A stretch of DNA of 61,312 nt from Litoreibacter ascidiaceicola (GTDB taxonomy: Bacteria; Pseudomonadota; Alphaproteobacteria; Rhodobacterales; Rhodobacteraceae). The translations under genes and the position numbers were made by a program. Below the pieces are notes generated by a model. That model made no database searches. It saw only the letters and a program-made list of their open reading frames with translations, and was not told the origin of the DNA. Below, one piece after another: positions 8,600 to 45,660 of this stretch. How positions within the stretch are numbered: position 1 is the first letter of the stretch; each line of letters begins with the position of its first letter. The DNA is taken from the NCBI RefSeq assembly GCF_900129235.1, contig NZ_FQUV01000012.1, forward strand, positions 1 to 61,312. Direction: 5' to 3'.

Positions 8600-8655
8600 C
8601 CCCCCATCATTGCTTCAAAAATACCTCGGGGGTTTGGGGGCAGCGCCCCCATCAA
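8600..8655 (+). repeat. Dispersed two-hairpin element, copy 1
   Basis: The first stem is a C-run at 8600-8605 pairing with GGGGG at 8628-8632 across a 22-nt conserved linker (8606-8627, ATCATTGCTT...AATACCTC). The second stem is TGGGGGC-AGC-GCCCCCA (about 8635-8651). It lies between argS and dgt, beyond the 3' end of dgt, and reads antisense to both genes. Related copies are at about 26510 and 45601. Confidence 0.85.
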
Positions 8656-8685
8656 AACTTCAAGCGCGCGCAGCGCCCAGTTTGG

Positions 8686-9858
8686 CTACCCGCGTTCCAC
8701 CACATAACTGTCCGCTGCAACGCCACCAATCAACCGCTCGTGCTCCTGCAAGGCGAACCTGTCCGTCATCCCCGCAATGTAATCCGCCACGATCCGCGCC
8801 AACGCGGTCTCCCCGTCCGCGTCTTCCACATCCTTGCGCCACTGCTTGGGCAGCAGGTCCGTTTGCGTCATGAACAGCGGGAACAACTCGTCGACCACTT
8901 GGGTCACCTGCACGCGCATTTCCACCACGGCAGGGGCGCGATACATGCGGGTGAACAGGAACGCACGGATCACTTTCAACTGGGCCCACACGTCCGGCGA
9001 GAACTGCACCATCGCGCGCCCTGCGCCGCGAATATCCGCCACAGACCTTGGCCCCAATGCATCCAACCGCGCTTTCGCCACCGCGATCACATCCTCCACC
9101 AGAAGACCGAAGAACCGGCGCAGCGCCTCGTGGCGGCGGCGATAATAGTTCAACCCCGGATACAGCGCGTCCACCCGTGCAAAACACGGGCCTACCAGCG
9201 GCAGTTCTGCCAATTCATCCGTCGAGAACAGTTCCGCCCGCAGCCCGTCATGCAGGTCGTGGTTGTTATAGGCAATGTCATCCGCCAAGGCCGCCACTTG
9301 CGCCTCGGCGCTGGCATAGGTGCCCAGTTCCAGATCGTGTCGCGCCGAATACTCTGTCAACGCAAAAGGCAAATCACCGGTCACCGGCCCGTTGTGTTTT
9401 GCAATGCCCTCCAGCGTCTCCCAAGTCAGGTTCAGCCCGTCCCATTCGGCATAGTGGCGCTCCAGCGAAGTCACAATCTTCAACGCCTGCGCGTTGTGAT
9501 CAAAGCCACCATAGGGTGCCATCAACGCGTCCAGTGCCTCCTCGCCCGTATGCCCGAACGGTGTGTGGCCCAGATCATGCGCCAAGGCGACAGCCTCGGT
9601 CAGCTCCTCGTTCAGCCCCAACACGCCGGCAATCGTGCGCGCAACTTGGGCCACTTCGATCGAATGGGTCAGCCGCGTGCGGAAATAATCCCCCTCATGC
9701 TCGATAAACACTTGGGTTTTGTGCTTCAGTCGCCGGAACGCGCTAGCATGAATGATCCGGTCTCGGTCGCGCTGGAAGCAGGACCGGAAGGTGCTTTCAT
9801 CCTCCGGGTAAAGCCGTCCGCGGCTTTCACCTGGATGGCAGGCATAGGGGGCCAGCAT
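8686..9858 (-). CDS. dgt: dGTPase-like HD-domain deoxynucleotide triphosphohydrolase
   Basis: A 390-residue protein of the Dgt/SAMHD1 type, which hydrolyses dNTPs to nucleosides and triphosphate. Features: RDRDRIIHASAFRRLKHKTQV, the HD motif elements RTRLTHSIEVAQVARTI and ALAHDLGHTPFGHTGEEAL, and the C-terminal YIAGMTDRFAL. The ATG at 9858 follows a GAGGA box. Its 5' side faces the divergent STAS-like and erpA-type genes. It may be transcribed with argS, although the repeat lies between them. Confidence 0.92.
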   Translation of the reverse strand: MLAPYACHPGESRGRLYPEDESTFRSCFQRDRDRIIHASAFRRLKHKTQVFIEHEGDYFRTRLTHSIEVAQVARTIAGVLGLNEELTEAVALAHDLGHTPFGHTGEEALDALMAPYGGFDHNAQALKIVTSLERHYAEWDGLNLTWETLEGIAKHNGPVTGDLPFALTEYSARHDLELGTYASAEAQVAALADDIAYNNHDLHDGLRAELFSTDELAELPLVGPCFARVDALYPGLNYYRRRHEALRRFFGLLVEDVIAVAKARLDALGPRSVADIRGAGRAMVQFSPDVWAQLKVIRAFLFTRMYRAPAVVEMRVQVTQVVDELFPLFMTQTDLLPKQWRKDVEDADGETALARIVADYIAGMTDRFALQEHERLIGGVAADSYVVERG

Positions 9859-10009
9859 AGCGGTATCCTCGTTCTTCTTTTCGCCTATGTCCTACACCAC
9901 TGCGCCCCCCGTGACGAGAGCGCGCACCCCGTTGCGGATCGCTGCAACCAAGCCCATATATTAGAGGCGAACAGGACTACCTTACCCTTGCCCGAAAGGA
10001 CACCAGACC

Positions 10010-10423
10010 ATGTTCACCGTAGAGACCCTCGCCCCCGACCTTCTGAAAGTTGAAATTGGTGGAAAGATCACCGCCGAGGAAATGTCGAGCGGCCTTGATA
10101 CCTTGCTACCATTGACCTCAGCCATGGCCGACGGCCGGATGCTGGCGCTGTACCACGATATTGAATTCCCTGAGGCCGGCGCGATCCTTGAGGAAATGAA
10201 ACGCCTGCCCCAGTTGTTCGGCGTGATCGGCAAGGTGAAAAAGGTGGCTCTGGTGTCAGACCAGAAATGGATCCGCGACATGGCAATGCTGGAAGGCAAG
10301 ATTATTCCGGGCATGACCATCCGCAGCTTCGAGTTCAAGGACCGCGCGCAGGCCGAAGCCTATCTGGAGATGGCCGACGCACCTGCCTCAGGCGATGACG
10401 ACAACGAGAATTTTCCGGTCTAA
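10010..10423 (+). CDS. STAS/SEC14-like (SpoIIAA-like) protein
   Basis: A 137-residue protein with the SpoIIAA-like fold: LAPDLLKVEIGGKITAEEM, LALYHDIEFPEAGA and a KKVALVSDQKWIRDMAMLEGKIIPGMTIRSFE core that matches PF11964-type proteins. No catalytic residues are apparent. Such proteins are single-domain, cytosolic and of unknown role. It is divergent from dgt (150-bp gap, RBS AAAGGA) and 75 bp upstream of the Fe-S carrier gene on the same strand. Confidence 0.82.
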   Translation: MFTVETLAPDLLKVEIGGKITAEEMSSGLDTLLPLTSAMADGRMLALYHDIEFPEAGAILEEMKRLPQLFGVIGKVKKVALVSDQKWIRDMAMLEGKIIPGMTIRSFEFKDRAQAEAYLEMADAPASGDDDNENFPV

Positions 10424-10498
10424 CGCCTGAACATCTTGAGATACCCCGTCGCTCGCCTTACCTTCTAGACAAACGCGCACTCATATAGGATGCGAGCG

Positions 10499-10828
10499 AT
10501 GGAACTCACCCTGCCCCCCAAAGTCACTGACCGCGCTTTCGAGCGGTTGGCCGAAATCGGTGCGTCCGGACAAGGCCAGGCCCTGCGCGTCGCCGTCGAT
10601 GGTGGCGGCTGTTCGGGTTTTCAGTATGACATCAAGCTCGACACGCCCGCCGAGGACGACCTGATCCTGTCGAAAGACGGGGAAACGGTCGTCGTGGATT
10701 CCGTGTCGCTGCCCTTCTTGTCCAATGCGGTTATCGACTTCTCCGAAGAGTTGATCGGTGCGCGCTTCGTGATCGAAAACCCCAACGCCACATCATCTTG
10801 CGGCTGCGGTACGTCTTTTTCGATGTAG
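10499..10828 (+). CDS. erpA: A-type iron-sulfur carrier (IscA/ErpA family)
   Basis: A 109-residue HesB/IscA/ErpA scaffold that delivers Fe-S clusters to apoproteins. The three conserved cysteines are present: GGGCSGFQY in the middle and SSCGCGTSF at the C-terminus. The ATG at 10499 is favoured because AGGA lies 8 nt upstream; an in-frame ATG at 10490 overlaps that ribosome binding site. Symbol erpA is a family-level assignment; IscA cannot be excluded. Confidence 0.88.
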   Translation: MELTLPPKVTDRAFERLAEIGASGQGQALRVAVDGGGCSGFQYDIKLDTPAEDDLILSKDGETVVVDSVSLPFLSNAVIDFSEELIGARFVIENPNATSSCGCGTSFSM

Positions 10829-10834
10829 TCAAAC

Positions 10835-10867
10835 GCAAAAAAGGGGCGCCGCTTTTCAGCGCGCCCC
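10835..10867 (-). terminator. Rho-independent terminator for the small lipoprotein gene
   Basis: Read on the minus strand, GGGGCGC (10861-10867) pairs with GCGCCCC (10843-10849) around an 11-nt loop and is followed by six T (plus-strand A-run 10837-10842). It ends transcription from the 11076 gene and separates it from the convergent erpA. Confidence 0.8.
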
Positions 10868-10890
10868 GACCTCTCGGACTTTCCCGGCAA

Positions 10891-11076
10891 TTACATCTCG
10901 CGTTTATACTCTTCCAACGCCGCGTCCCACGCCGGAGAATTCTCCAGAATTTCGGGGTCAAACGGGATGAAATAGAGCCCCTGTATGGCTCCTCGCGAAG
11001 CCTGCACGTCCTCGGATTCGGGGACTCCGCAGGCTGTCAGCGCCAACATTGCGCCCAGTACCAAAACTACTCTCAT
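10891..11076 (-). CDS. Small lipoprotein of unknown function
   Basis: A 61-residue protein with a lipoprotein signal: MRVVLVLGAMLALTAC, with the lipid-attached Cys at residue 16. The mature part is about 45 residues (SRGAIQGLYFIPFDPEILENSPAWDAALEEYKREM). ATG 11076 is preferred over 11088 because GAGG lies 6 nt upstream. I do not recognise the family. It has its own terminator and no partner genes. Confidence 0.75.
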   Translation of the reverse strand: MRVVLVLGAMLALTACGVPESEDVQASRGAIQGLYFIPFDPEILENSPAWDAALEEYKREM

Positions 11077-11238
11077 TGTCTGCCTCATGCAGTGTATTGT
11101 TTTTGTTTATTATTTGGCTCTTTTGTAGAAACAAAACACAGCAATGGGGCGCAATTATGTCATTGCCCCCCGAATCAGTAGATCCGATGTGTCCTTTCAG
11201 CCACAGAAAATCGGGCCGAAAGGCTATGGATTGTCGCC

Positions 11239-11442
11239 CTAGCGCAGGTTGGACCGCAGCAGCGACCGCTCAAGCGACGCGCGGGTGACTTGCACCTCTG
11301 AAGGCACACGCACTTTGGTGATCGTCACAACTTGCGAGCCGTCCGCGCGCGTCACAGTTTCCACATAGGTCACTGTTTTGGCGCTTGCTGCACCGGCCAG
11401 TGCCAAAGCGGCAACCGCAGCGAGGGGTATCAGACGTTTCAT
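11239..11442 (-). CDS. Small exported protein of unknown function
   Basis: A 67-residue protein with a signal peptide (MKRLIPLAAVAALALAGAASA, cleavage after ASA). The short mature domain is rich in Val/Thr strands (KTVTYVETVTRADGSQVVTITKVRVP) and ends in a basic tail. The start at 11442 is chosen because the signal peptide begins there; an upstream start at 11487 would bury it. Its ribosome binding site lies in the loop of a perfect inverted repeat. Function unknown. Confidence 0.75.
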   Translation of the reverse strand: MKRLIPLAAVAALALAGAASAKTVTYVETVTRADGSQVVTITKVRVPSEVQVTRASLERSLLRSNLR

Positions 11443-11443
11443 A

Positions 11444-11471
11444 GCGTTAACCTTCTCAAATTTGTTAACGC
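11444..11471 (-). promoter_or_regulatory. Inverted repeat enclosing the ribosome binding site of the 11442 gene
   Basis: GCGTTAAC (11444-11451) and GTTAACGC (11464-11471) are a perfect 8-bp inverted repeat with a 12-bp spacer. On the minus strand the spacer contains GAGAAG, the Shine-Dalgarno region, two bases before ATG. It could act as an RNA hairpin controlling translation or as an operator for a dimeric repressor. Confidence 0.6.
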
Positions 11472-11567
11472 CATGACTGACCCGCAATCACGGCACCAAT
11501 GCGGCACGTCAGCGGCGTGGACGCGGTCATTTCGCGGTCAAGATCGGCCACTTTCCTGCAATATGAA

Positions 11568-11603
11568 TAAAAAACGACCACGCCGGTGCACCCAGACGTG
11601 GCC
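11568..11603 (-). terminator. Rho-independent terminator downstream of the 94-residue gene
   Basis: On the minus strand CCACG (11597-11601) pairs with CGTGG (11578-11582) around a GC-rich loop. TCG and a run of six T follow (plus-strand A-run near 11569-11574). It lies 28 bp beyond the stop of the 11916 gene. Confidence 0.6.
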
Positions 11604-11631
11604 GTAAAGGGGTCTCCCGCAGTTTGACCTG

Positions 11632-11916
11632 TCAGGCGACTTTCGTCTCCGCTGCTTGCGTCACAGCCTCTGGTGTTTCGTTTGTCGATGTCGCATCGCC
11701 GTCATCCTCTGGCGCCGGCAAGGCCAGCGCTTCATCGGGCATATGCTCCGGCAGGTGCAGGGTGATATGGCCGCTTTCAGGATCAAGCGTCACGCTCGGC
11801 TTGACCGGCAATGCGTCGATGGCCTCGTTCAACTCGGACACAATGCGCTCGAAGCTTTGACGTTGGGTTTCCACCACAGCGTCTTTATCGCGGCCCCGAA
11901 ACAAAAACTTGAACAT
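11632..11916 (-). CDS. Small acidic protein of unknown function
   Basis: A 94-residue protein beginning MFKFLFRGRDKDAVVETQRQ. The middle is a possible amphipathic helix (SFERIVSELNEAIDALPVKP), then a short strand region (VTLDPESGHITLHLPEHM) and an acidic disordered tail. It looks like a real gene because of a coherent frame, a good upstream RBS and its own terminator. No known motif is visible. Confidence 0.7.
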   Translation of the reverse strand: MFKFLFRGRDKDAVVETQRQSFERIVSELNEAIDALPVKPSVTLDPESGHITLHLPEHMPDEALALPAPEDDGDATSTNETPEAVTQAAETKVA

Positions 11917-12072
11917 TGCGTCTCCCTCTTCGCGATTGATCGATTCATCATGATCTATACCGGTTTTGTCCGGTCTCTACAGCGGGGAAAAGGCCTGCCC
12001 TTGGCGCAATTCCGCCTCTTGCTCCCCAGCGCGCCATGCGTGATACCTTTTGCACAAGAAGGGGGCCACTTT

Positions 12073-12855
12073 ATGAAAATCGCCACGTTCAACATCAACG
12101 GGATCAAGGCACGCATCAATGCGCTGACCGACTGGCTGGCGGAAACTCAGCCCGACGTCGCCCTGCTGCAAGAGATCAAAACCGTCGATCAAGGCTTCCC
12201 CCGCCAGCATTTCGAGGACATGGGCTATAATGTCGAAACCCACGGCATGAAAAGCTTCAACGGGGTGGCCATCCTGTCCAAGCTGCCTTTGGAGGACGTG
12301 ACCCGCGGCCTGCCCGGTGACGACAGTGACGAGCAAGCCCGCTGGATCGAGGCCACTGTCATGGGCGATCAACATGCGGTGCGGCTATGTGGCCTGTACC
12401 TGCCCAACGGCAACCCGCGTCCGGGTCCGAAATTCGATTACAAACTCGCATGGATGGAGCGGATGTATGCCCGTGCGCAGCAACTCATGGCAGACGAGAT
12501 GCCCGCGATGATGGCTGGTGACTACAACATCATCCCGCAAGCCATCGACGCCGCCCGCCCCGAGGCATGGCGCGAGGATGCGCTGTTTCACCCTGATAGC
12601 CGCGCCGCCTATCGCCGTATCCTGAACCTCGGCTTCACCGAAGCCTTCCGCACCCGCAACCCCGCACCCGAGCAATACAGCTTCTGGGACTATCAAGCAG
12701 GGGCTTGGAACAAAAACGACGGCATCCGCATCGACCACCTGTTGTTGACCCCGCAAGCCGCAGACTTGCTGAAGGATTGCCAGATCGACAAGGAATACAG
12801 AGGACGCGAAAAGCCGTCAGATCACGTGCCCGTCTGGGTGGAGCTTGCCGCCTAA
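12073..12855 (+). CDS. xth: Exodeoxyribonuclease III
   Basis: A 260-residue EEP-superfamily nuclease that repairs abasic sites and trims 3' ends. Signatures: MKIATFNINGIKARINALTDWL, the metal-binding Glu in VALLQEIKT, MAGDYNIIPQ (Asp/Asn), the DYQAGAWNKNDGIRIDHLLL segment and the C-terminal SDHVPVWVEL. The open frame extends upstream, but the real start is ATG 12073, where homologs begin. It converges with the LysE gene; the two stop codons overlap by four bases. Confidence 0.94.
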   Translation: MKIATFNINGIKARINALTDWLAETQPDVALLQEIKTVDQGFPRQHFEDMGYNVETHGMKSFNGVAILSKLPLEDVTRGLPGDDSDEQARWIEATVMGDQHAVRLCGLYLPNGNPRPGPKFDYKLAWMERMYARAQQLMADEMPAMMAGDYNIIPQAIDAARPEAWREDALFHPDSRAAYRRILNLGFTEAFRTRNPAPEQYSFWDYQAGAWNKNDGIRIDHLLLTPQAADLLKDCQIDKEYRGREKPSDHVPVWVELAA

Positions 12856-13442
12856 AAGGCGCTCCATGCCGCCAAACCCACCACCGCCAGCATCGCCAAG
12901 GCCATGCCGACATTGATCACCCGCTGCGTGCGCGGTGGCAGGGCCATGCGTTTAACGGCGCTCCCTGCCCAAAGCCAAAGGAAGTGGATCGCCAGCCAGA
13001 TCACGTTGATAATCGCAAACTTCGTGGCCACCTCCAGCCCGTAGGCGTCGGGGAAAATCGGGAAGCCGGAAAATAGCGTGGTGTTGACCACATAAGCCTT
13101 CGGGTTCACCGCCTGTAGCAGCAACCCGTCGCGGATGCCGGGCTGTCGGCGCGCCGGGGAAAAGGCGATGTTAGAGCCCGCCAAGGCAATCCGCGCCGCC
13201 AGATACAGCAAATAGCAGGTCGACACGCCCAGCAAGACCAGCCGGATCGTGGGGTTCGCCAGCACCAACGCGCCCAACCCCGTTACAACGGCCAATGCGA
13301 CAAGGTTCGTGCCGAAGAACAGCCCCGTGAGATACCGCAACCCCGCGCGGAACCCGAATGCGGCCCCGACACCGGCCAAAGACAACACGCCCGGCCCGGG
13401 GGTGATGATCAGCAGGAAAATGGCCGCGGCGAAATTCAGCAT
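12852..13442 (-). CDS. LysE-family amino-acid exporter
   Basis: A 196-residue inner-membrane protein with about six hydrophobic helices. It starts with LNFAAAIFLLIITPGPGVLSLAGVGAAFGFRAGL, the conserved LysE/RhtB N-terminus with the TPGP motif, and has NPKAYVVNTTLFSGF in the middle. The family exports amino acids or their derivatives; the substrate is not predictable. It overlaps the 3' end of xth by four bases. Confidence 0.88.
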   Translation of the reverse strand: MLNFAAAIFLLIITPGPGVLSLAGVGAAFGFRAGLRYLTGLFFGTNLVALAVVTGLGALVLANPTIRLVLLGVSTCYLLYLAARIALAGSNIAFSPARRQPGIRDGLLLQAVNPKAYVVNTTLFSGFPIFPDAYGLEVATKFAIINVIWLAIHFLWLWAGSAVKRMALPPRTQRVINVGMALAMLAVVGLAAWSAF

Positions 13443-13518
13443 CCAAGACCCGTAACGAAAAACCGCCGAAACCTTGCGGCACCGGCGGCGTTTACAGTGT
13501 GATTATGATCAGGCCTGA

Positions 13519-13941
13519 TCACGTGTCGCGGTGGACTTTTTCGCGACGCTCGTGACGCTCTTGCGCCTCAAGGCTCATGGTGGCCACCGGACGCGCATCA
13601 AGACGTTTCAGCGAAATGGGCTCGCCGGTCTCGCTGCAATATCCGTATTCACCTTCGTCAATGCGGCGCAACGCGGCGTCAATCTTGGAGATAAGTTTGC
13701 GCTCCCGATCACGGGTGCGCAGCTCCAACGCCATATCTGTTTCTTCCGACGCACGGTCCGCGACGTCCGGAATGTTGCGTGTGCCGTCTTTCATGCCTTC
13801 GATGGTTTGGGCGGTCTCTTCCATAATGGAAGCCTTCCAATCCAGCAGCTTGCGACGGAAATACTCGGTTTGACGGTCGTTCATGAACGGCTCGTCTTCG
13901 GCCGGGCGATAATCATCGGGTAGAAATGCTTCGGCTTTCAT
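13519..13941 (-). CDS. dksA: RNA polymerase-binding transcription factor DksA
   Basis: A 140-residue DksA-family regulator that inserts its coiled coil into the RNA polymerase secondary channel and, with ppGpp, adjusts rRNA and amino-acid promoters. The coiled-coil region (FRRKLLDWKASIMEETAQTI ... DRASEETDMALELRTRDRERKL) and the C-terminal finger (EYGYCSETGEPISLKRLDARP) are clear. Only one of the four usual zinc cysteines remains, so the finger probably folds without zinc, as in other alphaproteobacterial DksA. GAGTGAGGA precedes ATG 13941. Confidence 0.94.
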   Translation of the reverse strand: MKAEAFLPDDYRPAEDEPFMNDRQTEYFRRKLLDWKASIMEETAQTIEGMKDGTRNIPDVADRASEETDMALELRTRDRERKLISKIDAALRRIDEGEYGYCSETGEPISLKRLDARPVATMSLEAQERHERREKVHRDT

Positions 13942-14128
13942 CCCAGGTCCTCACTCTAACTCAGTCTGTGTTCTTAAGTCCGACTCAAAAACACATCATG
14001 CTTTAACTTCCCTGCGTCCTCGTAACCGAAGCTCCCCCCCTTGTCACGCATATAAGGACCGTTAAAAGAGCCTTAGCACGATCAATTATACGTTAATCAA
14101 CTCCACGTCACAGAGGCTTGTTTTGTTT

Positions 14129-14998
14129 ATGGATTCCACGACGCCCCCTACCCGCCCGCTGAAGTTCACAGGCACCAAGAGCTACGTGGCAACCGATGAT
14201 CTGACCGTTGCCGTCAACGCCGCCGTCACGCTGGAGCGCCCCTTACTGGTCAAGGGCGAACCCGGCACCGGCAAGACAGAGCTTGCCCGTCAGGTCTCCG
14301 ACGCGCTCGGGCTGGAGATGATCGAATGGCACATCAAGTCTACCACAAAAGCGCAGCAAGGTCTGTATGAATACGATGCCGTTTCCCGCCTGCGGGACAG
14401 CCAGCTCGGCGACGAGAAAGTCCATGACGTTGCCAATTACATCAAGCGCGGCAAACTCTGGCAAGCCTTTGAACGTGAAGAGAAATGCGTCCTGCTGATC
14501 GACGAGATCGACAAGGCCGATATCGAGTTCCCGAACGACCTGCTGCAAGAACTCGACCGGATGGAATTCCATGTCTATGAAACCGGCGAGACGGTCAAAG
14601 CCCGACAACGCCCCATCGTCATCATTACCTCCAACAACGAAAAAGAACTGCCCGACGCCTTCCTGCGCCGCTGCTTTTTCCACTACATCCGCTTCCCTGA
14701 TATCGATACCATGCGGGCTATCGTCGACGTCCATTTCCCCGGCCTCAAGCCCGCCCTGCTAACCGCCGCGCTGACGCAATTCTACGAGATCCGCGAGACC
14801 AACGGATTGAAGAAGAAACCGTCGACCTCCGAGGTTCTGGATTGGTTAAAATTGTTGCTGGCGGAGGACTTATCCGCCGAAGACCTCGCCCAAAAAGGCA
14901 CATCCGCACTGCCGCGTCTGCACGGGGCCTTGTTGAAGAACGAGCAAGACGTCCACCTGTTCGAAAGGCTGGCCTTTCTGGCACGGGGTCAACGCTAA
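14129..14998 (+). CDS. MoxR-family AAA+ ATPase
   Basis: A 289-residue MoxR ATPase. Walker A is GEPGTGKT at 43-50, Walker B is CVLLIDEIDKAD near 120-131, sensor 1 is IVIITSNNEKEL and an Arg-finger region is LRRCFFHYIRFPD. MoxR proteins work with VWA-domain partners to remodel or insert cofactors into client complexes. The partner here is very likely the VWA protein at 16812-18002. ATG 14129 is chosen over a TTG at 14123. A 268-bp gap follows before the DUF2927 gene. Confidence 0.93.
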   Translation: MDSTTPPTRPLKFTGTKSYVATDDLTVAVNAAVTLERPLLVKGEPGTGKTELARQVSDALGLEMIEWHIKSTTKAQQGLYEYDAVSRLRDSQLGDEKVHDVANYIKRGKLWQAFEREEKCVLLIDEIDKADIEFPNDLLQELDRMEFHVYETGETVKARQRPIVIITSNNEKELPDAFLRRCFFHYIRFPDIDTMRAIVDVHFPGLKPALLTAALTQFYEIRETNGLKKKPSTSEVLDWLKLLLAEDLSAEDLAQKGTSALPRLHGALLKNEQDVHLFERLAFLARGQR

Positions 14999-15266
14999 CG
15001 CGCCAGCCGCGGAAACAATCGCCTGCAAAATGCCTAATTCGTCCCCAACTCGCGCCTTAATGAACCGGTTAACAGGTCAGTAATCGAGCAATAAGGCGGG
15101 ACAAATCCGTGAAGAGCAATTCAGTGCGCCCATCGCGGGCCAAGATCATTGACCATACTTCCGCGTCAATGCGCTGCCCCCAGTGGCATTGTGTCCACAG
15201 GGCCACGATAACCGGCCTTTGCATAAATTTCGCACCAGATCGCGAAAACGCGGGTATAACGCTCTA

Positions 15267-16631: not shown

Positions 16632-16638
16632 GCACTAA

Positions 16639-16812
16639 ATGGCCCCTCTCATCGGTATGCTGATCGGCGCGCTTCTCGGCGCGGTCGTGGCAAAACGCAA
16701 AGGCGGCAACCGCCTCGATATGGCGCAATATGCGGGCGGGTTCGCCATCATCTTTGGCCTGATCGGGCTGTTCGTCGCCATCTATCTGGCCCGCGCCGCC
16801 GTCGCAGCCTGA
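16639..16812 (+). CDS. 57-residue membrane peptide between DUF2927 and VWA genes
   Basis: A small gene with ATG 16639 and TGA 16810-16812. The product is MAPLIGMLIGALLGAVVAKR... followed by a short basic loop and a second hydrophobic segment (GGFAIIFGLIGLFVAIYLA), so it is probably a two-helix inner-membrane hairpin. It starts 7 bp after the DUF2927 stop. Its TGA overlaps the ATG of the VWA gene (TGATG), strong evidence for coupled translation in one operon. I recognise no family. Confidence 0.8.
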   Translation: MAPLIGMLIGALLGAVVAKRKGGNRLDMAQYAGGFAIIFGLIGLFVAIYLARAAVAA

Positions 16813-25623: not shown

Positions 25624-26400
25624 CTAGGCCGACTTCAAAATTTGCGGCCGCTCGCCCGCGGCCCATTGCGCCGCCGCCTCCCCGAAGGCTTCAAACAAGA
25701 GCCTTGAGACCGGATCTTGCGCCGCGCGGTATTCGGGATGCCACTGGACCGACAGGCTGAACCCCGGCGCGTCCTTGATATAGATCGCTTCCGGTGTGCC
25801 ATCCGGCGCGAACCCGTCAATCACCACCCGCTCGCCCGCGGCCTTGATGCCTTGGCCATGCAGCGTGTTGGTCATCACCTCGCGCGCACCCAGCAATTTG
25901 TGAAACGGCCCGCCTTCGGTGAAGGTCACGGCGTGGCGCAGCTCGAACTTTTCTTCCAACGTCCCGTCGGGTGGCATGCGGTGGTTCATCCGCCCCGGCA
26001 GATCGCGAATTTCAGGATAGAGCGTGCCGCCCATGGCCACATTGACCTCTTGAAAGCCGCGACACACGCCAAAAATCGGCTGCCCGCGCTCGATGCAGGA
26101 CCGGATCAGCGGTAGCGCGATGCGGTCACGCGACCGGTCAAACGCGCCATGCGCCTCGGTCTCCGCCTCGCCATATTCTTCGGGATGCACATTCGGGCGA
26201 CCGCCGGTGAACAAAAAGCCGTCGCAGGTATCCAGCAGGTCTTGGACCTCAATCAGCGAAGGACAAGAGGGAACAATCACCGGCACCGCGCGCGACACTT
26301 CGGCAATCGCCTGACAGTTCATGCTGCCGGCCGCATGGGCGGGATATTGATCGTTGATCAGATACGAGTTGCCGATAATACCAATGACCGGACGCACCAT
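25624..26400 (-). CDS. Gamma-glutamyl-gamma-aminobutyrate hydrolase family (peptidase C26)
   Basis: A 258-residue class I glutamine amidotransferase-like hydrolase of the PuuD type, cleaving gamma-glutamyl amides in polyamine or related catabolism. The nucleophile Cys lies in QPIFGVCRGFQEVNVA, and the catalytic His-Glu pair in VQWHPEYRAA. SYLINDQYPAHAAGSMNCQA is the N-terminal block. Substrate is unknown. A 221-bp gap upstream holds repeat copy 2. Confidence 0.9.
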   Translation of the reverse strand: MVRPVIGIIGNSYLINDQYPAHAAGSMNCQAIAEVSRAVPVIVPSCPSLIEVQDLLDTCDGFLFTGGRPNVHPEEYGEAETEAHGAFDRSRDRIALPLIRSCIERGQPIFGVCRGFQEVNVAMGGTLYPEIRDLPGRMNHRMPPDGTLEEKFELRHAVTFTEGGPFHKLLGAREVMTNTLHGQGIKAAGERVVIDGFAPDGTPEAIYIKDAPGFSLSVQWHPEYRAAQDPVSRLLFEAFGEAAAQWAAGERPQILKSA

Positions 26401-26507: not shown

Positions 26508-26605
26508 CCTCCCCCCATCATTGCTTCAAAAATACCTCGGGGTGTGGGGCAGCGCCCCACTAAAAATCGGGGGTGCGGGGGCAGCGCCCCCGCGGATCGA
26601 CACGC
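26508..26605 (+). repeat. Dispersed two-hairpin element, copy 2 (with a duplicated stem)
   Basis: The conserved 22-nt linker (ATCATTGCTT...AATACCTC, about 26517-26538) sits between CCCC and GGGG arms. Then come GTGGGGC-AGC-GCCCCAC and a further related stem GCGGGGGC-AGC-GCCCCCGC. It fills most of the gap between the C26 gene start and the glcB stop and reads antisense to both; on the minus strand it follows glcB and could end its transcript. Confidence 0.85.
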
Positions 26606-26621
26606 CACAGGCGTGGCGAAA

Positions 26622-34937: not shown

Positions 34938-34957
34938 GCGGGCATCTCAGCCGTAGG

Positions 34958-38338: not shown

Positions 38339-38436
38339 TTTGATCTACCTCGCGGTGAATTTGCTTTGTTTCGCAAAGCTGCAATTAAAAATCTCAAACG
38401 AGTTTCAATGGCAGCAGCTTTCGTAAGAGGCTGAAC

Positions 38437-38650
38437 GCAGACACCCGACGCACCTCCACCAACCAACGGCTGGGATGCCGTGGCGGGGGGAAGCGTCTCG
38501 CATCTTATTAGCGAAATGGTGGCGCCGCCTTGGGCAGAAAGCCATGATCCATACGGTTCCCCCAGAACGTTTCCCCTCCAGCGGTCATTGTTTCGCGAAA
38601 CGCCCACTGCCCCAAGCGAACTGCCGCATGGTGCTGATATCTTGAGTGCC
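38437..38650. repeat. ~210-bp imperfect direct repeat, copy A (left of mttB-like gene)
   Basis: Closely similar to 40474-40686, including the shared blocks GGGGAAGCGTCTCGCATCTT, GCGAAATGGTGGCGCC, CCATGATCCAT and ATTGTTTCGCGAAACGCC, with scattered substitutions and single-base indels. No coding frame is preserved between copies. It occupies most of the 486-bp gap 38339-38824. Confidence 0.9.
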
Positions 38651-38661
38651 GTTGAGAATCT

Positions 38662-38703
38662 CCAAATCCGCGCAGGTGGAAAATGCGAAAGAGAACCCTA
38701 AGC
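38662..38703 (+). pseudogene. Short echo of the gatB 3' end
   Basis: These 42 bases match gatB 37341-37382 at 37 positions (for example GCGCAGGTGGAAA and GCGAAAGAGAACCC are shared). The bases after it are only vaguely like the gatB continuation. It is directly right of repeat copy A and 1.2 kb from the real gatB end, in the same orientation. It is non-coding: the ORF context is absent. Confidence 0.7.
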
Positions 38704-38824
38704 GCTATCGTCCGACAGTTTTGTTGGGTGACTGATTTGGGTCCAAACGCACTTTTTTCCTGAAGGCCGGAGGGGATTGGTGCTTTGAGCCGCAGCGGTG
38801 GGCTCTTATCTTCAGAGTAATACG

Positions 38825-40354
38825 CTAAAGGATCTTAAACTGACGGCGGATGGCGGCGTCTTGGTCGCTCGAAAGGTATTCAGGATGGTGATCCGCCAAG
38901 ATTTTTCGCGCGCGTTCCCGCGCTACTGTTCTCGCGTCTTTTGCTCCGTTTTCGGCCCATGTGCGCGGTTCGTCACGATTGGCAACTGACGGGTAAAAAT
39001 AGTCACGCTCCATCGCAGCTATCGTGTGTTCCCCCCCTAGAAAATGACCCGGGCCAAGAACCGCCTCGTTGATCGCATCAAATCCAAGGTTTTCTTCGGT
39101 CACTTCGATCCCACGCAGCGCACGATAGGTATGCGAGTGCATCTCGTCGTCTAGAATGAAGGCTTCAAAACTGGCCCCCAGCAAGGACGCGGTCATGCCT
39201 GAACTCTCGTAAATCAAATTGCCACCAGCGAGGGCCGCGGCAAGCGAGCTTAGGCCCTTTTCCGCGCCGTATTGCGCGTCGATTGCTTTGGCGTCCGTCA
39301 TCGAACACGCCACGCCGGATGGCAGTCCCAACCAGTTCGACAGTTGCGCAGAGGCGGCATTCAGAACAGCGCTTTCCCCGCTCCCACCTGAAAACGCGCC
39401 AGTGCGCAGGTCAACAACCAATGGCCAGTTTGAAAAGACCATGGGAAATCCGGGCTTGATCGCGTGGACCATAACGAGACTTGCCAGCGTTTCAGCCAAG
39501 GATTGCGCCAGAAAGCCCGCCATCGTTGCGGGCGCAGTCGCACCGGCTTGGGCGGCCGTGATGCATGACATCGGAATGTTATGTTTGATGCATTCGTAGA
39601 CGACATCCACCGCGTCTTCCCCGTACCGCATAGGCGAAATCACCGGACTGATATGTGCTTTCATGAAGGGGCGCTTTGAGAATTCGCCTTCGCCACCTGC
39701 TGCGATGTCGAGCATTTTGACGATCGGATCTATATGTTCAGCCAAGGTAAACGACGTCGCTGTCGGCTTTGTCGTATTGCGCAACAAAGCATAGGCCGTG
39801 TTCACGTCCAGATCGAAATTGTCGGGCACATCAGTCGCAACGCAGCAGCGTGTATACCAGCTTACATTCGCCAGCGTATCTTGCAGTCGCGTGAAATTGT
39901 GAAGGTCGGCAAGCGTTGACGGACGGTAGATGCCGTCCTCCAAATCCAGCGTTTGAACCGCTGCTCCACCAGTGCCAAAATAAACCTTGTTGCCACCTAC
40001 CTCAATTGAGCGATTGTCATCGCGACCATGCAACGTGAAGGTTTTGGCCGCCCGCGCGATCGCATCCTCAACAAGAGGCGTCGGGAAGGTTACGCGATCC
40101 TTTCCATTGTCCTGCGCGCCAGCCGCAAGAAGGTCGCGTCTAAGCCTATCGGGAACTTCTCCCATTCCAAGGTCGGACAAAAGCTTTAAGGCGGTCTTGA
40201 AAATACGAGCCAGATCTACTTCGCTCAGCGGTTTATATGAACCGCCGATCTGACCTGGCGGGCACGGATCGACAACCGGGTTGGCTGCCCGTTGAATAAG
40301 GCGTTGCGCTCGGCCGCCGCTGCGTCTCTTAGCTTGGCCACCGGCATCGGTCAT
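38825..40354 (-). CDS. MttB-family corrinoid methyltransferase (non-pyrrolysine)
   Basis: A 509-residue protein of the trimethylamine methyltransferase (MttB) superfamily, which transfers methyl groups from quaternary or tertiary amines to a corrinoid protein. Blocks include GRDDNRSIEVGGNKVYFGTG, FTLAEHIDPIVKMLDIAA, the barrel segment PMSCITAAQAGATAPATMAG and the C-terminal AAMERDYFYPSVANRDEPRTWAENG. There is no in-frame amber codon, so it is the non-Pyl type; the amine is unknown. ATG 40354 begins the conserved part (MTDAGGQAKRRSGGRAQRL); the frame opens at 40468. No corrinoid-protein gene adjoins it. The gene is bracketed by direct repeats. Confidence 0.9.
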   Translation of the reverse strand: MTDAGGQAKRRSGGRAQRLIQRAANPVVDPCPPGQIGGSYKPLSEVDLARIFKTALKLLSDLGMGEVPDRLRRDLLAAGAQDNGKDRVTFPTPLVEDAIARAAKTFTLHGRDDNRSIEVGGNKVYFGTGGAAVQTLDLEDGIYRPSTLADLHNFTRLQDTLANVSWYTRCCVATDVPDNFDLDVNTAYALLRNTTKPTATSFTLAEHIDPIVKMLDIAAGGEGEFSKRPFMKAHISPVISPMRYGEDAVDVVYECIKHNIPMSCITAAQAGATAPATMAGFLAQSLAETLASLVMVHAIKPGFPMVFSNWPLVVDLRTGAFSGGSGESAVLNAASAQLSNWLGLPSGVACSMTDAKAIDAQYGAEKGLSSLAAALAGGNLIYESSGMTASLLGASFEAFILDDEMHSHTYRALRGIEVTEENLGFDAINEAVLGPGHFLGGEHTIAAMERDYFYPSVANRDEPRTWAENGAKDARTVARERARKILADHHPEYLSSDQDAAIRRQFKIL

Positions 40355-40473
40355 GTGTTTGTAACTACTGATGAGCGTTGCTTCATAATTCAAAACTGGT
40401 AGGGCAATACTGGTGACTTTGACAACATATTTTAGGGATAGCATTCTACGAAGCCGTTTCGACGCCATTCGGT

Positions 40474-40686
40474 GCAGACACCCGGCGCACCTCCACCCAC
40501 CAACGGCTCAAGTGCCGTGGCGGGGGAAGCGTCTCGCATCTTGTTAGCGAAATGGTGGCGCCACCTAAAGTCAGACGGCCATGATCCATGCGGTTCCCCC
40601 GAAAGGTTTCCCTTCCGGCGGCCATTGTTTCGCGAAACGCCAGCAGCCCGAACGGACTGCCGCATGTTTCTGATGTCTTGAATGCG
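40474..40686. repeat. ~210-bp imperfect direct repeat, copy B (right of mttB-like gene)
   Basis: The partner of 38437-38650, in the same orientation and about 2.0 kb away. It lies in the 523-bp region 40355-40877 between the mttB-like gene and the small membrane protein, where no gene is found. Near its right end lie short inverted repeats such as GGCAGCGTGCGCTGCC (about 40755). Confidence 0.9.
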
Positions 40687-40877
40687 GAGGGTGTCACCCC
40701 GCCGCGCGGTACCGGTGACAGGGTTTAGCCTCAAGGTGTTAGCAATCTGGAAAGGCAGCGTGCGCTGCCCGGGGAACGATTCATTCACACTTGTTTCACT
40801 CGCTTTCACGCGCGCCCTTCGTGCATGATGCTTTTACAGTAGTAACGAGTAACATTTTTCCCCGGAGCCCCACCGTC

Positions 40878-41147
40878 ATGGACCCAGCGATGCTGTATCA
40901 AGTTATCGGAGTATGTGGTTTCATCGCCTATATGACGGGATTTGCGGGGCTCCAACTGGGCTGGCTGGACGGCAATGGATGCGCTTATTGCGTGAGCAAT
41001 ATTATCGGTGCGTCCTTGGTGTTGGTCAGCCTGTATCACGCGTTCAACTTTGCCTCCGCGTTGATTCAGGTGGCTTGGATCGTCCTTGGACTGCTTGGCC
41101 TGTATCGCAGGCGGTTTGCCGTGGCGTCCGCGCACCAGTTGGGCTGA
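40878..41147 (+). CDS. CBU_0592-like small membrane protein
   Basis: An 89-residue protein with three hydrophobic stretches (LYQVIGVCGFIAYMTGFAGL, CVSNIIGASLVLVSLYHAF and LIQVAWIVLGLLGLY) and a short basic tail. The pattern matches the CBU_0592-like family of unknown function. The start is ATG 40878; the longer frame begins before it without support. Confidence 0.78.
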   Translation: MDPAMLYQVIGVCGFIAYMTGFAGLQLGWLDGNGCAYCVSNIIGASLVLVSLYHAFNFASALIQVAWIVLGLLGLYRRRFAVASAHQLG

Positions 41148-41220
41148 CAGCGCGGCTTTCGCTGGACTCGGATGCAGGGCTTTTGTAACACAAAGCCTTC
41201 TGCTGCAGGGGGTATAAGCG

Positions 41221-41649
41221 ATGCCAAATTTTGAATACCAAGTTGTTCCGGCGCCCCGCAAGGGCAAGTCCGCGCGTAAAATTCGTGGCTCCGAAGCCAA
41301 GTTTGCCAACACTATCAGTGAGTTGATGAACGAAATGGCGGCAGAGGGCTGGGAATACCAGCGCGCCGAGACCCTGCCTTGCGAAGAGCGTCAGGGCTTT
41401 ACCGGCAAGACGATCAAATACCATTCCATGCTGGTCTTCCGCCGTGAATTGGCCGCAGAAGAAGTCATCGCAGATGCGCCCGTGGCCGCGGTGGTTGCCG
41501 CGCCTGTGGTCGAAAAGGTCGTTGAGACCCCGGTCGAGAACACCCGTCCGGAGCCAGTGCTAAGCCGCACGGAAGGCCCCGCCTCCGAAGGGTTTATGAG
41601 CGAGGCCGAAACGCCGTCCGAGGACCGCAAGGGCGTCGCCGCCGAGTAA
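41221..41649 (+). CDS. DUF4177-domain protein
   Basis: A 142-residue protein. The N-terminal ~75 residues are a DUF4177 domain (MPNFEYQVVPAPRKGKSARK ... MNEMAAEGWEYQRAETLPC ... YHSMLVFRREL), a small alpha/beta fold of unknown role. The C-terminal half is Pro/Glu/Ala-rich and probably disordered. No catalytic residues are seen. Confidence 0.85.
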   Translation: MPNFEYQVVPAPRKGKSARKIRGSEAKFANTISELMNEMAAEGWEYQRAETLPCEERQGFTGKTIKYHSMLVFRRELAAEEVIADAPVAAVVAAPVVEKVVETPVENTRPEPVLSRTEGPASEGFMSEAETPSEDRKGVAAE

Positions 41650-41661
41650 GTTGCGCGGCCG

Positions 41662-41919
41662 TCAGCTCGAGATATCCAAAGCCAGCGCATGAATGCGCCC
41701 GATCAGCTCGGGCCCCAACGCCGCGTGCACCGCACGGTGGCGTTGCACACGTGACATGTCGGCGAACGCAGGCGCGCGGATGGCCACGTTGAAATGGCTC
41801 TCGCCCCCCTCTTGGTATCCGCCATGCCCACGGTGACTTTCGCTATCATCGACCACCTCTAGATGCGTCGGCGCGAAGGCTGTGCGCAGTTTGTCGTCAA
41901 TCTGCTGTGTTATACCCAT
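41662..41919 (-). CDS. bolA: BolA-family protein
   Basis: An 85-residue BolA protein that partners monothiol glutaredoxins in Fe-S cluster handling. Signature: IDDKLRTAFAPTHLEVVDDS, the His in SHRGHGGYQ and FNVAIRAPAFADMSRVQRHRAVHAALG. It is divergent from the J-domain gene (74 bp). The symbol is used at family level. Confidence 0.92.
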   Translation of the reverse strand: MGITQQIDDKLRTAFAPTHLEVVDDSESHRGHGGYQEGGESHFNVAIRAPAFADMSRVQRHRAVHAALGPELIGRIHALALDISS

Positions 41920-41993
41920 ATTTTTTCCAATCTGCCCTTCACCTCGCTGCTCAAAACCCTAAAGTGTCTTCTCCGAGTCTAAAAGGTTAAGTC

Positions 41994-42632
41994 ATGGCGC
42001 GCCCCCCGTTTGATCCGTTCGAGTTCGATATTTCCGCGAAGAGTGACAAAGCTCGCCGTGCCAAAGGGCGTCGGGGTATGTCAGGTGCCGTGGAGACATC
42101 CCAGCGGACCTGCGAAGCGCCGGGCTGCGAAGAGCCGGGCAAATACCGCGCGCCGAAATCGCCGGATGTGCTGGATGACTTCTACTGGTTCTGCCAAGCG
42201 CATGTCCGCGAATACAACCTGAAGTGGAATTTCTTCGAGACCCACACGCAAGAAGAGATGGAGCGCCAGATGTCCTCGGACAAGGTCTGGGAGCGCCCGA
42301 CCAAACCGATGAAAAAAGGCGAGGAGCAACGCGCGTGGTCGCGCCTTGGCGTGGACGACCCGATGGCCGTGCTGGGCGAAAACGCCACCCGCAACCCGGG
42401 CCGCAACCCCAATGGCGCAGGACGCAAGCTGCCCGCGATGGAACGCAAGGCGCTGGAAATTCTGGAAGGCACTGTTCACATGAGCAAACCCGACCTGCGC
42501 AAGAAATATAAGAGCCTGATCAAAGAGCTGCACCCCGACATGAATGGCGGCAACCGCACCGACGAGGAGCAGTTGCAACAGGTCGTCTGGGCATGGGACC
42601 AGCTGAAAGACAGCCGCAACTTCTCGGGCTGA
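41994..42632 (+). CDS. J-domain (DnaJ-like) protein
   Basis: A 212-residue protein with an N-terminal domain holding C-x-A-P-G-C and a later WFCQAHVREYNLKW, and a C-terminal J-domain-like region (KALEILEGTVHMSKPDLRKKYKSLIKELHPDMNGG, HPD motif). J domains stimulate Hsp70. It is next to bolA and 110 bp before cobS; this order (bolA-J domain-cobS-cobT) is commonly seen in related bacteria. Confidence 0.9.
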   Translation: MARPPFDPFEFDISAKSDKARRAKGRRGMSGAVETSQRTCEAPGCEEPGKYRAPKSPDVLDDFYWFCQAHVREYNLKWNFFETHTQEEMERQMSSDKVWERPTKPMKKGEEQRAWSRLGVDDPMAVLGENATRNPGRNPNGAGRKLPAMERKALEILEGTVHMSKPDLRKKYKSLIKELHPDMNGGNRTDEEQLQQVVWAWDQLKDSRNFSG

Positions 42633-42742
42633 TAAAACGCGGCGTCAGGTCGCTTGTGAATTCAGATCTGGCGCGGGCCTTCCCCTTGCCCTTCCCCGCG
42701 ATATGTTGCATCCCGATGGGGTTATTCTGAGGGAACGAAAAT

Positions 42743-43729
42743 ATGGCCGACGGCAGCATGGATTTGAACGCGAAACCAACCGAGGATATCTCGGTTCGCG
42801 AAGTTTTTGGCATCGACAGCGACATGAAGGTCAAAGGCTTTGCCGACCGGACGGACCGCGTGCCGGAGCATGACAGCACCTACAAGTTCGACCGCGACAC
42901 CACCCTCGCGATCCTTGCGGGCTTCACCCATAACCGCCGCGTGATGATCCAAGGCTATCACGGCACGGGCAAATCGACACATATCGAGCAAGTCGCCTCG
43001 CGGCTGAACTGGCCATGTGTGCGGGTGAACCTCGACAGCCATATCAGCCGGATTGACCTGATCGGCAAGGACGCCATCAAGCTGAAAGACGGCGTGCAAG
43101 TGACCGAATTCCAAGAGGGCATTCTGCCTTGGGCCCTGCGCACCCCGACGGCCATCGTGTTCGACGAATATGACGCGGGCCGCGCCGACGTGATGTTCGT
43201 GATCCAGCGCGTGCTGGAAGTGGACGGCAAGCTGACGCTGCTGGACCAGAACAAGGTGATCAACCCGCACCCCTATTTCCGCCTGTTTGCCACCGCCAAC
43301 ACGGTCGGCTTGGGTGACACGACGGGGCTGTATCACGGCACCCAGCAGATCAACCAAGGCCAGATGGACCGGTGGTCGCTGGTCACCACGCTGAACTACC
43401 TGAGCCATGACGCGGAGGCCGCGATCGTGCTGGCCAAGAACCCGTATTACAACACCGAAGAGCGCCGCAAAACCGTGGGCCAGATGGTCACCGTCGCCGA
43501 CCTGACCCGCACCGCGTTTATGAATGGCGACCTGTCGACGCTGATGTCGCCACGGACCGTCATCGCATGGGCGCAAAACGCGTTGATCTTCAACGATGTC
43601 GGCTACGCCTTCCGCCTGAGCTTCCTGAACAAATGCGACGAGCTGGAGCGCGAAACCGTGGCCGAGTTCTACCAGCGCTGTTTTGACGAGGAGCTTCCGG
43701 AGAGCGCTGCGAGTGTGAGCCTTGGCTAA
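42743..43729 (+). CDS. cobS: Cobaltochelatase subunit CobS (AAA+)
   Basis: A 328-residue AAA+ subunit of the aerobic cobaltochelatase, which with CobT and CobN inserts cobalt into hydrogenobyrinic acid diamide. Walker A is [19 protein letters not shown], Walker B is [17 protein letters not shown] and [20 protein letters not shown] is the sensor-1 block. GAGGGA precedes ATG 42743. CobT begins in the overlapping 3' end. Confidence 0.95.
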
Positions 43730-45599
43730 CAACGACAACCCCGCCGACCCGTTCAAAAAGGCGCTGGCCGAGGCGACCAAGACGCTCGCCAATGATCCTG
43801 ATCTGGGTGTGGCCTTCTCGGTCGACCCTCCGGGGATGACCAACGACCAAGTGCGCCTGCCGCAGGTCACGCGGCGGATGACGAAGGCCGAAGTGCTGCT
43901 GGCGCGCGGCACAGCGGATGCGTTCGCACTGCGTCGCCGCTTCCACAGTGACAGCACCGCCAACCGGTATTTGCCGCAAGGCAACATGGCGCGCGAGCTC
44001 TATGACGCGATGGAAACCGCGCGTTGCGAAGCCATGGGCGCACGCACCATGCCCGGCACGGCGGGCAATATCGACGCCAAAATCGGCGCAGAGGCGGAAC
44101 GCAAAGGCTACGGCCAAATCACCGAAGCCGGCCAAGCCCCCCTGTCTGTCGCGGCGGGCTACCTGATCCGCCATCTGGCCACCGGGCGCGAGTTGCCAGC
44201 GGATGCCTCCAACGTGATGAACCTGTGGAAGGACTTCATCGAAGGGGCTGCGGGTGGCACGCTGGAGAACCTGCAAGACGTGCTGTCCGATCAGGCCAGT
44301 TTCGCCAAATTTGCACGCCAGATCATCGACGATCTGGGCTATGGCGACCAGCTGGGTGACGACCCTGACGACATCAACGAGGATCAGGAAGACGAAGCCT
44401 CCGAGGACGAGCAGGACCAGGATCAAAGCGACGACGCGAACCCCGACAAGGAGGACAATTCCGAGGATCAGGACGCCTCTGCCGAGCAGTCGCAGGAACA
44501 ACAGGACGACGCGTCTCAGGCGACGGTGCAGCTCGACGATATGGCCGATGCGGAGATGGGCGACGAGGCCGAACTGCCCGAGGGCGAGGCCCCGATGGAC
44601 CCGCCCCCCCCCGCGCCGCATTCCGACGCAGACCCGAATTACGCGGTCTATGCCACGGAACATGACGAGGAAATCCGCGCCGAGGAGCTGGCGGAACCGG
44701 CCGAGCTGGAACGCCTTCGCGCCTATCTTGACCAGCAGCTGGAGCCGTTGAAAGGCGCTGTGTCGCGGCTGGCCAACAAGCTGCAACGCCGACTTCAGGC
44801 GCAGCAAAACCGCTCGTGGGAGTTCGATCTGGAGGAAGGCATCCTCGATGCAGGCCGCCTTGCCCGTGTGGTGGCGAACCCGACGACCCCGCTCAGCTTC
44901 AAGCAGGAAAAGGACATGGAGTTCCGTGACACCTGCGTGACCCTGCTGATCGACAATTCCGGCTCGATGCGCGGCCGCCCGATCTCCATCGCCGCGATTT
45001 GCGCCGACGTGCTGGCCCGCACGCTGGAGCGCTGTCAGGTCAAGACCGAGATCCTCGGCTTCACCACCCGCGCGTGGAAAGGCGGCCTCAGCCGCGAAGG
45101 CTGGCTGGCCGATGGACGCCCGCAACAACCGGGCCGCTTGAACGATCTGCGCCACATCATCTACAAATCCGCCGACGCTCCCTGGCGCCGGTCCCGCGAC
45201 AATCTGGGCTTGATGATGAAAGAGGGCTTGCTCAAAGAGAACATCGACGGCGAGGCGCTGGAATGGGCGCATAAACGCATGATCGGCCGCCCTGAGGCGC
45301 GCAAAATCCTGATGGTGATCTCCGACGGCGCGCCCGTCGATGATTCAACTTTGTCGGTTAACCCCGCGAATTATCTGGAAAAACACCTGCGCGACGTGAT
45401 CGCCATGGTGGAAAAACGCAAAGCGGTGGAGCTGATCGCGGTCGGTATCGGCCATGACGTGACCCGCTATTATGAACGCGCGGTGACGATCACCGATGTC
45501 GAACAACTGGCCGGTGCGATGACCGAACAACTGGCTGCGCTGTTCGACAGCGACCCGCGCGCCCGCGCCCGCGTTATGGGCATCAAGCGCGCCAGCTAA
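43722..45599 (+). CDS. cobT: Cobaltochelatase subunit CobT (VWA)
   Basis: A 625-residue CobT. The N-terminal ~200 residues are helical, an acidic Asp/Glu/Gln-rich linker spans about 212-293, and a C-terminal VWA domain holds the MIDAS DNSGSM at 411-416 (canonical D-x-S-x-S). It forms a two-tier ring with CobS. The start is a TTG overlapping the last 8 bases of cobS; a GTG at 43713 in the same frame is followed immediately by TGA, so TTG is the only option. Repeat copy 3 begins 2 bp after its stop. Confidence 0.93.
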
Positions 45600-45600
45600 T

Positions 45601-45660
45601 CTCCTATCATTGCTTTAAAAATACCTCGGAGGGGTCCGGGGAGGCAGCGCCTCCCCGGCG
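45601..45660 (+). repeat. Dispersed two-hairpin element, copy 3
   Basis: The first stem is CTCC (45601-45604) pairing with GGAG (about 45628-45631) around the same conserved linker. The second is CCGGGGAGGC-AGC-GCCTCCCCGG (45637-45659). It lies immediately downstream of cobT in the sense direction and is a likely transcript end or processing site. Both stems differ in sequence from the other copies but keep pairing. Confidence 0.85.

Follow-up and report, generated by a model that had tools for sequence, protein, structure and literature searches.

A dispersed extragenic element with a compensated hairpin at gene ends in Rhodobacteraceae

Our results show that a short repeated element, present three times in a stretch of DNA from Litoreibacter ascidiaceicola (contig NZ_FQUV01000012.1, positions 1 to 61,312; these 61,312 nucleotides are called the window below), recurs in the gaps between genes of many Rhodobacteraceae. 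Its copies keep a hairpin paired while the paired bases change, they lie between convergent or tandem genes and hardly ever between divergent ones, and most of them occupy orthologous places in related genomes. In our view the element is best read as specific to the Rhodobacteraceae and similar to repetitive extragenic palindromic (REP) sequences, independent of the RAYT transposase, expanded lineage by lineage, and acting as a boundary at gene ends whatever its orientation. All parts taken together, we give this reading about an even chance (roughly 0.5). The original prediction, made from the letters of the window, had been a three-copy element with two hairpins and compensating changes in both stems, which might be REP-like, mobile, or a signal for 3' processing or stability.

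Anatomy and paired structure

Each unit spans some 33 nt or more. It begins with a left half of roughly 10 nt; two free bases come next, then an invariable AAATA, a run of pyrimidines and, last, a hairpin. In family (a), to which the window copies belong, the left half is TCAYTGCTTC, followed by the two free bases and AAATACCT. Three types of tail can be told apart. Type I is CCGCCGGAGGC-like with a weak hairpin, NCC-GNA-GGN; type II, the type of the window copies, has a G-run and a strong hairpin (e.g., GGGGGC-AGC-GCCCCC); type III has no visible hairpin. The 22-nt linker that the original prediction had seen in three copies, ATCATTGCTT(C/T)AAAAATACCTC, is indeed found three times in the window, always on the + strand, and not once in 100 dinucleotide shuffles. 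It is also kept outside these three copies: the same genome holds 16 copies by a pattern with a variable middle and 23 if up to three mismatches are allowed, with none for the reversed pattern, our chance control in pattern searches. The variable-middle pattern is found in 14 of the 21 genomes of the genus (own genome included) and in 1 of 40 others.

A second family in the same genome, family (b), has the form TTCATCTTGG(C/T)-NN-AAATATTCC-CGCCGGAGGC, gives 31 matches to the generic pattern and is absent from the window. The 21 matches listed are all of this kind, and 20 of these 21 places, when fetched, yielded 21 copies to read. TTCATCTTGG and AAATATTC are invariant in 21 of 21, and the two bases between them take many values. 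Pairing between the left half and the tail within one element is, by eye, not consistent across families.

Compensating changes are found in the tail. For type I, 101 tails were collected by pattern; after dropping three that have neither AAATA nor AAGTA and leaving out the G001 orthologue of L326, 97 were aligned, of which 82 are distinct. In the hairpin NCC-GNA-GGN 99.6% of cells are paired, and 21 cells are changed on both sides, as opposed to 3.1 in shuffles (0 of 500). The cleanest pair is the outermost one, which the search pattern leaves free: it is G-C in 65 tails, C-G in 14, U-A in one, G-U in one and unpaired in one. An alternative, mutually exclusive hairpin has one pair that changes from C-G to U-A and G-C (73, 5 and 3), and another pair of the same helix is unpaired in 66 of 82. 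Our copies come from related sequences and kinship inflates shuffle tests, so changes that recur in different genomes outweigh the counts; in genome G164 the T-A and G-C forms both recur among the matches listed.

For type II, a perfect stem of at least 7 bp is present in 48 of 53 related copies (orthologues included), compared with 3% of base-shuffled sequences, and many different stems are used. The window copies each carry a perfect GC hairpin with an AGC loop 3' of the linker, exactly complementary and different in each, as had been claimed. The second stem is real. Folding energies of single copies lie just 1.5 to 2.8 standard deviations under those of shuffles, so the case for structure comes from comparison between copies and not from energies.

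The compensating changes that were predicted thus extend to other copies for the second stem and for the type I hairpin, but not for the first stem. This stem (CCCC/GGGG or CTCC/GGAG) has on average 3.89 of 5 positions paired in 37 distinct copies with a G-run 3' of the linker, and 3.88 with shuffled partners; in a second register the values are 3.65 and 3.63. With no excess over shuffles in either register, we reject it as a covarying helix. The change from C-G to T-A in copy 3, taken for a compensation, is private to that copy, because its orthologues keep GGAG with CCCCT, AACCC or CCCCC upstream. The C-run is also found 5' of copies that have no G-run after the linker (CCCC in 18 of 48, CCCT in 8 of 48).

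The copies in the window and their neighbours are as follows. The predicted neighbours dgt, glcB and cobT are recovered by NCBIfam.

6805-8550, - strand: argS (NCBIfam), on the other side of copy 1 from dgt
8606..8627, + strand: copy 1 linker, with left half TCATTGCTTC, two free bases, AAATA and CCTC; orthologous in 5 of 5 Litoreibacter genomes
8635..8651, + strand: copy 1 strong hairpin, TGGGGGC-AGC-GCCCCCA
8686-9858, - strand: dgt (NCBIfam), flanking copy 1
25624-26400, - strand: gamma-glutamyl-GABA-hydrolase-like gene (NCBIfam, below the curated cut-off), on the other side of copy 2 from glcB
26517..26538, + strand: copy 2 linker, left half as in copy 1; orthologous in 4 of 5 genomes
26544..26560, + strand: copy 2 strong hairpin, GTGGGGC-AGC-GCCCCAC
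26575..26593, + strand: copy 2 extra hairpin, GCGGGGGC-AGC-GCCCCCGC
26597..26619, + strand: copy 2 outer hairpin, TCGACACGCC-ACA-GGCGTGGCGA, with one mismatch, ending beside the glcB stop
ends 26622, - strand: glcB, malate synthase G (NCBIfam), flanking copy 2
43722-45599, + strand: cobT (NCBIfam); copy 3 starts a few bases past its stop
45606..45627, + strand: copy 3 linker, with a C-to-T change adjoining the free bases; orthologous in 4 of 5 genomes
45636..45658, + strand: copy 3 strong hairpin, CCGGGGAGGC-AGC-GCCTCCCCGG
45760-47523, + strand: Xaa-Pro-peptidase-like gene (NCBIfam, below cut-offs), 3' of copy 3

Copies 1 and 2 each lie between two minus-strand genes and are antisense to both, and copy 3 is sense to both of its neighbours. 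Among the named records compared by cobT, the nearest is that of Litoreibacter meonggei (98% identity). Hairpins of the form TCG..CGA that resemble the outer hairpin of copy 2 were also seen, by eye and uncounted, 3' of some other copies. At the gathering threshold of Rfam release 15 the window matches nothing but a tRNA at 524-597, and six relatives give no match; a permissive search of eight loci returned three matches, all far under the gathering scores.

Placement at gene ends and persistence

We grouped 240 raw sites by flank similarity into 135 independent clusters. Convergent genes surround 42 of these, tandem genes 37 (sense, ++) and 36 (antisense, --), and divergent genes one; ten lie in a called gene and nine have an undetermined context. 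The baseline, gaps of 35-600 nt from the window and 80 cobT loci, holds 442 tandem, 94 convergent and 98 divergent gaps. The excess of convergent over divergent sites remains once paired sites are removed (38 convergent, 36 ++, 30 --, one divergent; Fisher p 1e-9). In tandem gaps the two orientations are even, both among these unpaired sites (36 vs 30, p 0.54) and within type I (20 vs 17) and type II (13 vs 9). In the gap 3' of cobT, a uniform scan of 200 nt at 80 named loci has the element in 16, nine times forward and eight times reverse, with one locus holding both. The types differ in where they are found, with convergent and tandem sites numbering 27 and 22 for type II, and 11 and 37 for type I (p 0.0017).

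Close pairs of copies are inverted in 14 cases and direct in none, although three of the 14 represent one orthologous place. In genome G069 (L252, L254, L262, L268, L274) copies that stand head to head at a distance of 46-75 nt make up long inverted repeats in the gaps between genes, and several of these copies lack an individual GC hairpin. Three genomes (L064, L183, L206) have kept a tail-to-tail pair, spaced by 70 nt, in which type III faces a type I-like copy.

One could argue that the element is an ordinary intrinsic terminator, or a strand-specific 3' processing signal, in which the tail hairpin is followed by UAUUU on the reverse strand. Read on that strand, type I of family (a) is, by eye, a hairpin followed by UAUUUUU. 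Like intrinsic terminators, including bidirectional ones, the element has a GC hairpin near gene ends and is enriched between convergent genes, which its strong hairpins favour, and the tandem sites of type III are split unevenly (4 ++ vs 9 --). We nevertheless regard this explanation as quite improbable. Tandem orientation is even overall (37 vs 36), in unpaired sites and within types I and II, so that the strand-specific 3' signal of the original prediction finds no support. Sequence is also conserved outside the hairpin, and a terminator has no need of a half of 10 nt that is specific to the family and lies past the U-tract. Copies sit between same-strand neighbours of one pathway. In the window copies, the strong hairpin has no U-run behind it on the + strand.

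Over short times the element stays in place. In five Litoreibacter genomes 101 copies reduce to 28 orthologous sites, 22 of which are common to three to five genomes. Across these 22 groups (156 pairs) most motif positions show a divergence of 0 to 0.03, the two free bases 0.18 and 0.35, and the flanks about 0.4 (upstream, roughly 0.3 to 0.5). The search scored the first free base, when changed, as an ordinary mismatch, and accepted both A and T at the second. Three apparent absences could be located by synteny, and all three loci could be aligned along their full length of about 3 kb. Two of these sites had escaped the pattern by a single base in the A-run (one of them also by its first, Y, position), and the third has decayed. 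Recent transposition as the cause of these absences between nearest relatives is therefore rejected.

It is conceivable that the copies are non-functional leftovers of an old mobile element, their constraint an artefact of ascertainment and their placement a record of tolerated insertions. Finding copies by pattern does bias divergence downward, tolerated insertions would likewise avoid promoters and genes, and one missed orthologue has decayed. We find this hard to believe, however, for the following reasons. First, the free bases diverge while adjoining motif positions hardly do, despite the scoring of a changed first free base as a mismatch. Second, compensatory changes keep the hairpins paired. 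Third, types I and II differ in placement.

Over long times units are gained or lost. Between ebfC and recR, inspection by eye of 19 genomes of the genus (own genome included) gives six with the element, one (G014) with another left half, three with an unrelated repeat and nine with none, at least two of the nine having a different upstream gene. The unit that is present, absent or supplied with another left half in congeners measures, by eye, about 33 nt. Differences in presence are also found 3' of cobT, and at neither place did we see a clean junction or target duplication. A tree of recR that might date the gain was poorly resolved and is not used as evidence. As to the suggestion that the element is mobile, differences in presence over longer times are seen, and recent mobility is not.

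Several single loci deserve mention. Upstream of recR, the place past the ebfC stop that holds the element in other genomes is taken in three congeners (L286, L293 and L296) by another repeat, GGTGGGGTGTAGCG...GGGCCCCACACC. In L073, near 11890 and 3' of cobT, a decayed element start, CAATATTGCTTCATAA, immediately precedes a copy that is intact; it looks as though one unit had arisen beside another. In L015 2003-3608 (own genome C11 518466-520093) two near-identical copies in the same orientation flank 1.6 kb with two open reading frames, which we take to encode a DUF305-like and a MauE-like protein. Genome G001 has a single copy in the same orthologous group, and its flanks look, by eye, like the two outer flanks of that pair; recombination between the copies may have added or removed a cassette here.

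Distribution and known systems

A pattern that ignores the left half was run on 12 congeners and then on 198 Rhodobacteraceae genomes, and brought out one common frame, T-9nt-NN-AAATA-YYYY-CGCCGGAGG. Of the 198 genomes 160 have matches, up to 176 in one genome (G217), while the reversed control gives at most 3 per genome. Chance accounts for some matches: in many of the 160 genomes there are no more than one or two. An earlier pattern specific for the left half matched in 134 of the 198. In a sample of the class Alphaproteobacteria (181 genomes) those outside the Rhodobacteraceae have at most 3 matches and controls up to 2, that is, control level. Match counts refer to whole genomes, and versions of the left half to the matches listed. 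Among the latter, left halves are largely uniform within a family of copies and differ between families and genomes (for example TCTTTTGCT, TCTTCTGTT, TCCAAATGTT and TCATTGTTCC). Many genomes have, among the matches listed, several families with the frame T-9nt-NN-AAATA-hairpin in common and a differing left half of 9-10 nt.

Among named plasmids, the family (b) consensus matched 15 records, 14 from Rhodobacterales and one from Nostoc. In the 13 annotated ones, whose gene tables are incomplete, no annotated feature lies under the best place. Six loci were opened, and they include the gaps rfbB-rfbD (antisense), gcvH-gcvP (sense) and dgcN-dgcA (antisense). The same consensus has no match (E-value up to 1) in 50,697 phage records, which speaks against a phage origin. 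We found no description or name of the element in the open literature, a weak negative given that subscription papers lay outside our scope; the portions available to us of PMC8632094, PMC5217627, PMC1852404 and PMC5107571 do not mention it.

The closest likeness is to REP, BIME and REPIN sequences with their RAYTs, which the accessible parts of two studies describe as short extragenic GC-rich palindromes with many copies, inverted arrangement and several classes (PMC2817692; PMC8049555). Our element is likewise short, extragenic and GC-rich, has tens to hundreds of copies, inverted pairs and several sequence classes, and hardly ever lies in divergent gaps. As in what those parts say of REP sequences, its palindrome is kept by complementary changes (type I tail, type II stem). 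In REP sequences the foot of the palindrome bears a GT(A/G)G head, according to a study that reports RAYTs satisfying its criteria from gammaproteobacteria only (PMC2817692). At the foot of our element we find AAATA-YYYY and, in the copies read, no such head, and it has a family-specific left half and two free bases besides.

Could it still be a RAYT-driven REP or REPIN family as in gammaproteobacteria? The extragenic hairpins in tens to hundreds of copies, the inverted pairs and the lineage-specific families, which recall REP classes, would fit. We consider this very unlikely indeed. The PF01797 profile, used to detect the RAYT-type transposase that the original prediction proposed to look for, finds nothing in the own genome and is present in only 18 of 198 family genomes (no match in 180), as against type I matches in 160 of 198. 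None of the three genomes with the most matches (G217, G176, G197) is one of those 18. Because neither the RAYT enzyme nor the GT(A/G)G head was found, we do not class the element as REP: the predicted likeness holds for anatomy and placement, but not for a RAYT-REP system.

DNA uptake sequences, which come in lineage 'dialects', are a further comparison. According to the parts of the studies we could consult, those located in terminators of Haemophilus and its relatives are also repeated and form inverted pairs at gene ends (PMC5217627; PMC1852404), and H. influenzae has about 1300 copies of a 9-nt motif (PMC5217627). Our two families number 23 and about 31 copies, and their motifs, some 22 nt long, are bipartite with two free bases. 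This is too few, and uptake sequences also occur inside genes, where 10 of our 135 clusters were called, so that we reject this reading. The spaced motif GCTTAT(N)5AAGCG of A. ebreus is intergenic in 107 of 114 copies, with 44 convergent and 4 divergent, as reported in the part seen of PMC5217627. It has a similar placement bias, but it is another motif in another organism, and that part does not describe compensating changes. Finally, HRC-8-4 is, in the portion available, a terminator-like structured motif that is intergenic and limited to Rhodobacterales (PMC8632094). Compared by description alone, it shares with our element this restriction, a hairpin with conserved bases and the intergenic position.

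A possible boundary and its putative reader

How could such an element be kept? Families of copies may expand within a lineage by a process independent of RAYTs and then stay put for long. A unit that has come to lie at a gene end would be kept as a boundary mark on whichever strand is transcribed. Since the palindromic part could fold in the transcript of either strand, where it would shield the upstream message or hold back read-through, orientation would be irrelevant, and a strand-independent boundary would also explain why strong forms favour convergent pairs and weak ones tandem gaps.

Several points weigh against this reading. The gene contexts of the sites come from a simple home-made gene caller and are mixed in 11 of 135 clusters, the tail types were assigned by a crude rule, and collecting copies by pattern with up to three mismatches biases divergence estimates downward, so that the low values are in part ascertainment. 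Two of the five covariation measures are unremarkable (both-side changes 185 of 500, further pair types 19 of 500), although a hairpin of only three pairs has limited scope for such changes. Taken by itself, the type I hairpin has a low predicted stability (about -1 to -4 kcal/mol, computed as DNA) that does not exceed that of shuffles. In type III, by eye, the linker is kept in three to five genomes (five orthologous groups) where no hairpin is visible; hence the hairpin cannot be the whole function. No transposase or other trans factor ties the element to a mechanism.

The conservation of the left half even in type III suggests an additional, putative sequence-specific reader. One could go further and suppose that each family consists of binding sites of a lineage-specific DNA-binding protein, such as a nucleoid organiser, an insulator or a polymerase roadblock, with the halves as contacts and the hairpin as secondary. 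The two free bases between invariant halves (TTCATCTTGG and AAATATTC, 21 of 21 in family (b)), the motif kept without a hairpin in type III (by eye), the orientation-blind placement and the several discrete families per genome (among the matches listed) would all suit such a protein. This is possible, but on balance we think it unlikely. The pairing of the tail is kept through C-G, T-A and G-C changes, which a protein contact does not need. A roadblock would be harmful between same-strand genes of the same pathway, where copies on named plasmids are found (rfbB-rfbD, gcvH-gcvP). No candidate protein was found, and none was searched for.

The boundary element that we prefer may itself belong to something larger. 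We tentatively suggest, as a rather doubtful extension, a hitherto unrecognised recognition system with fast-evolving specificity in most Rhodobacteraceae, in which diversifying putative readers (protein or guide RNA) would spread sites and use them at gene boundaries without RAYTs.

If our reading is true, an unannotated element with conserved structure is present in about four-fifths of the genomes sampled from a major family of marine and phototrophic bacteria, and many of these genomes have tens to hundreds of copies at gene ends. REP-like repeats would then be able to spread and persist without a RAYT. The versions of the left half would form a natural series for finding the reader, and the copies would be a ready set of boundary elements for Rhodobacteraceae genetics to annotate and test.

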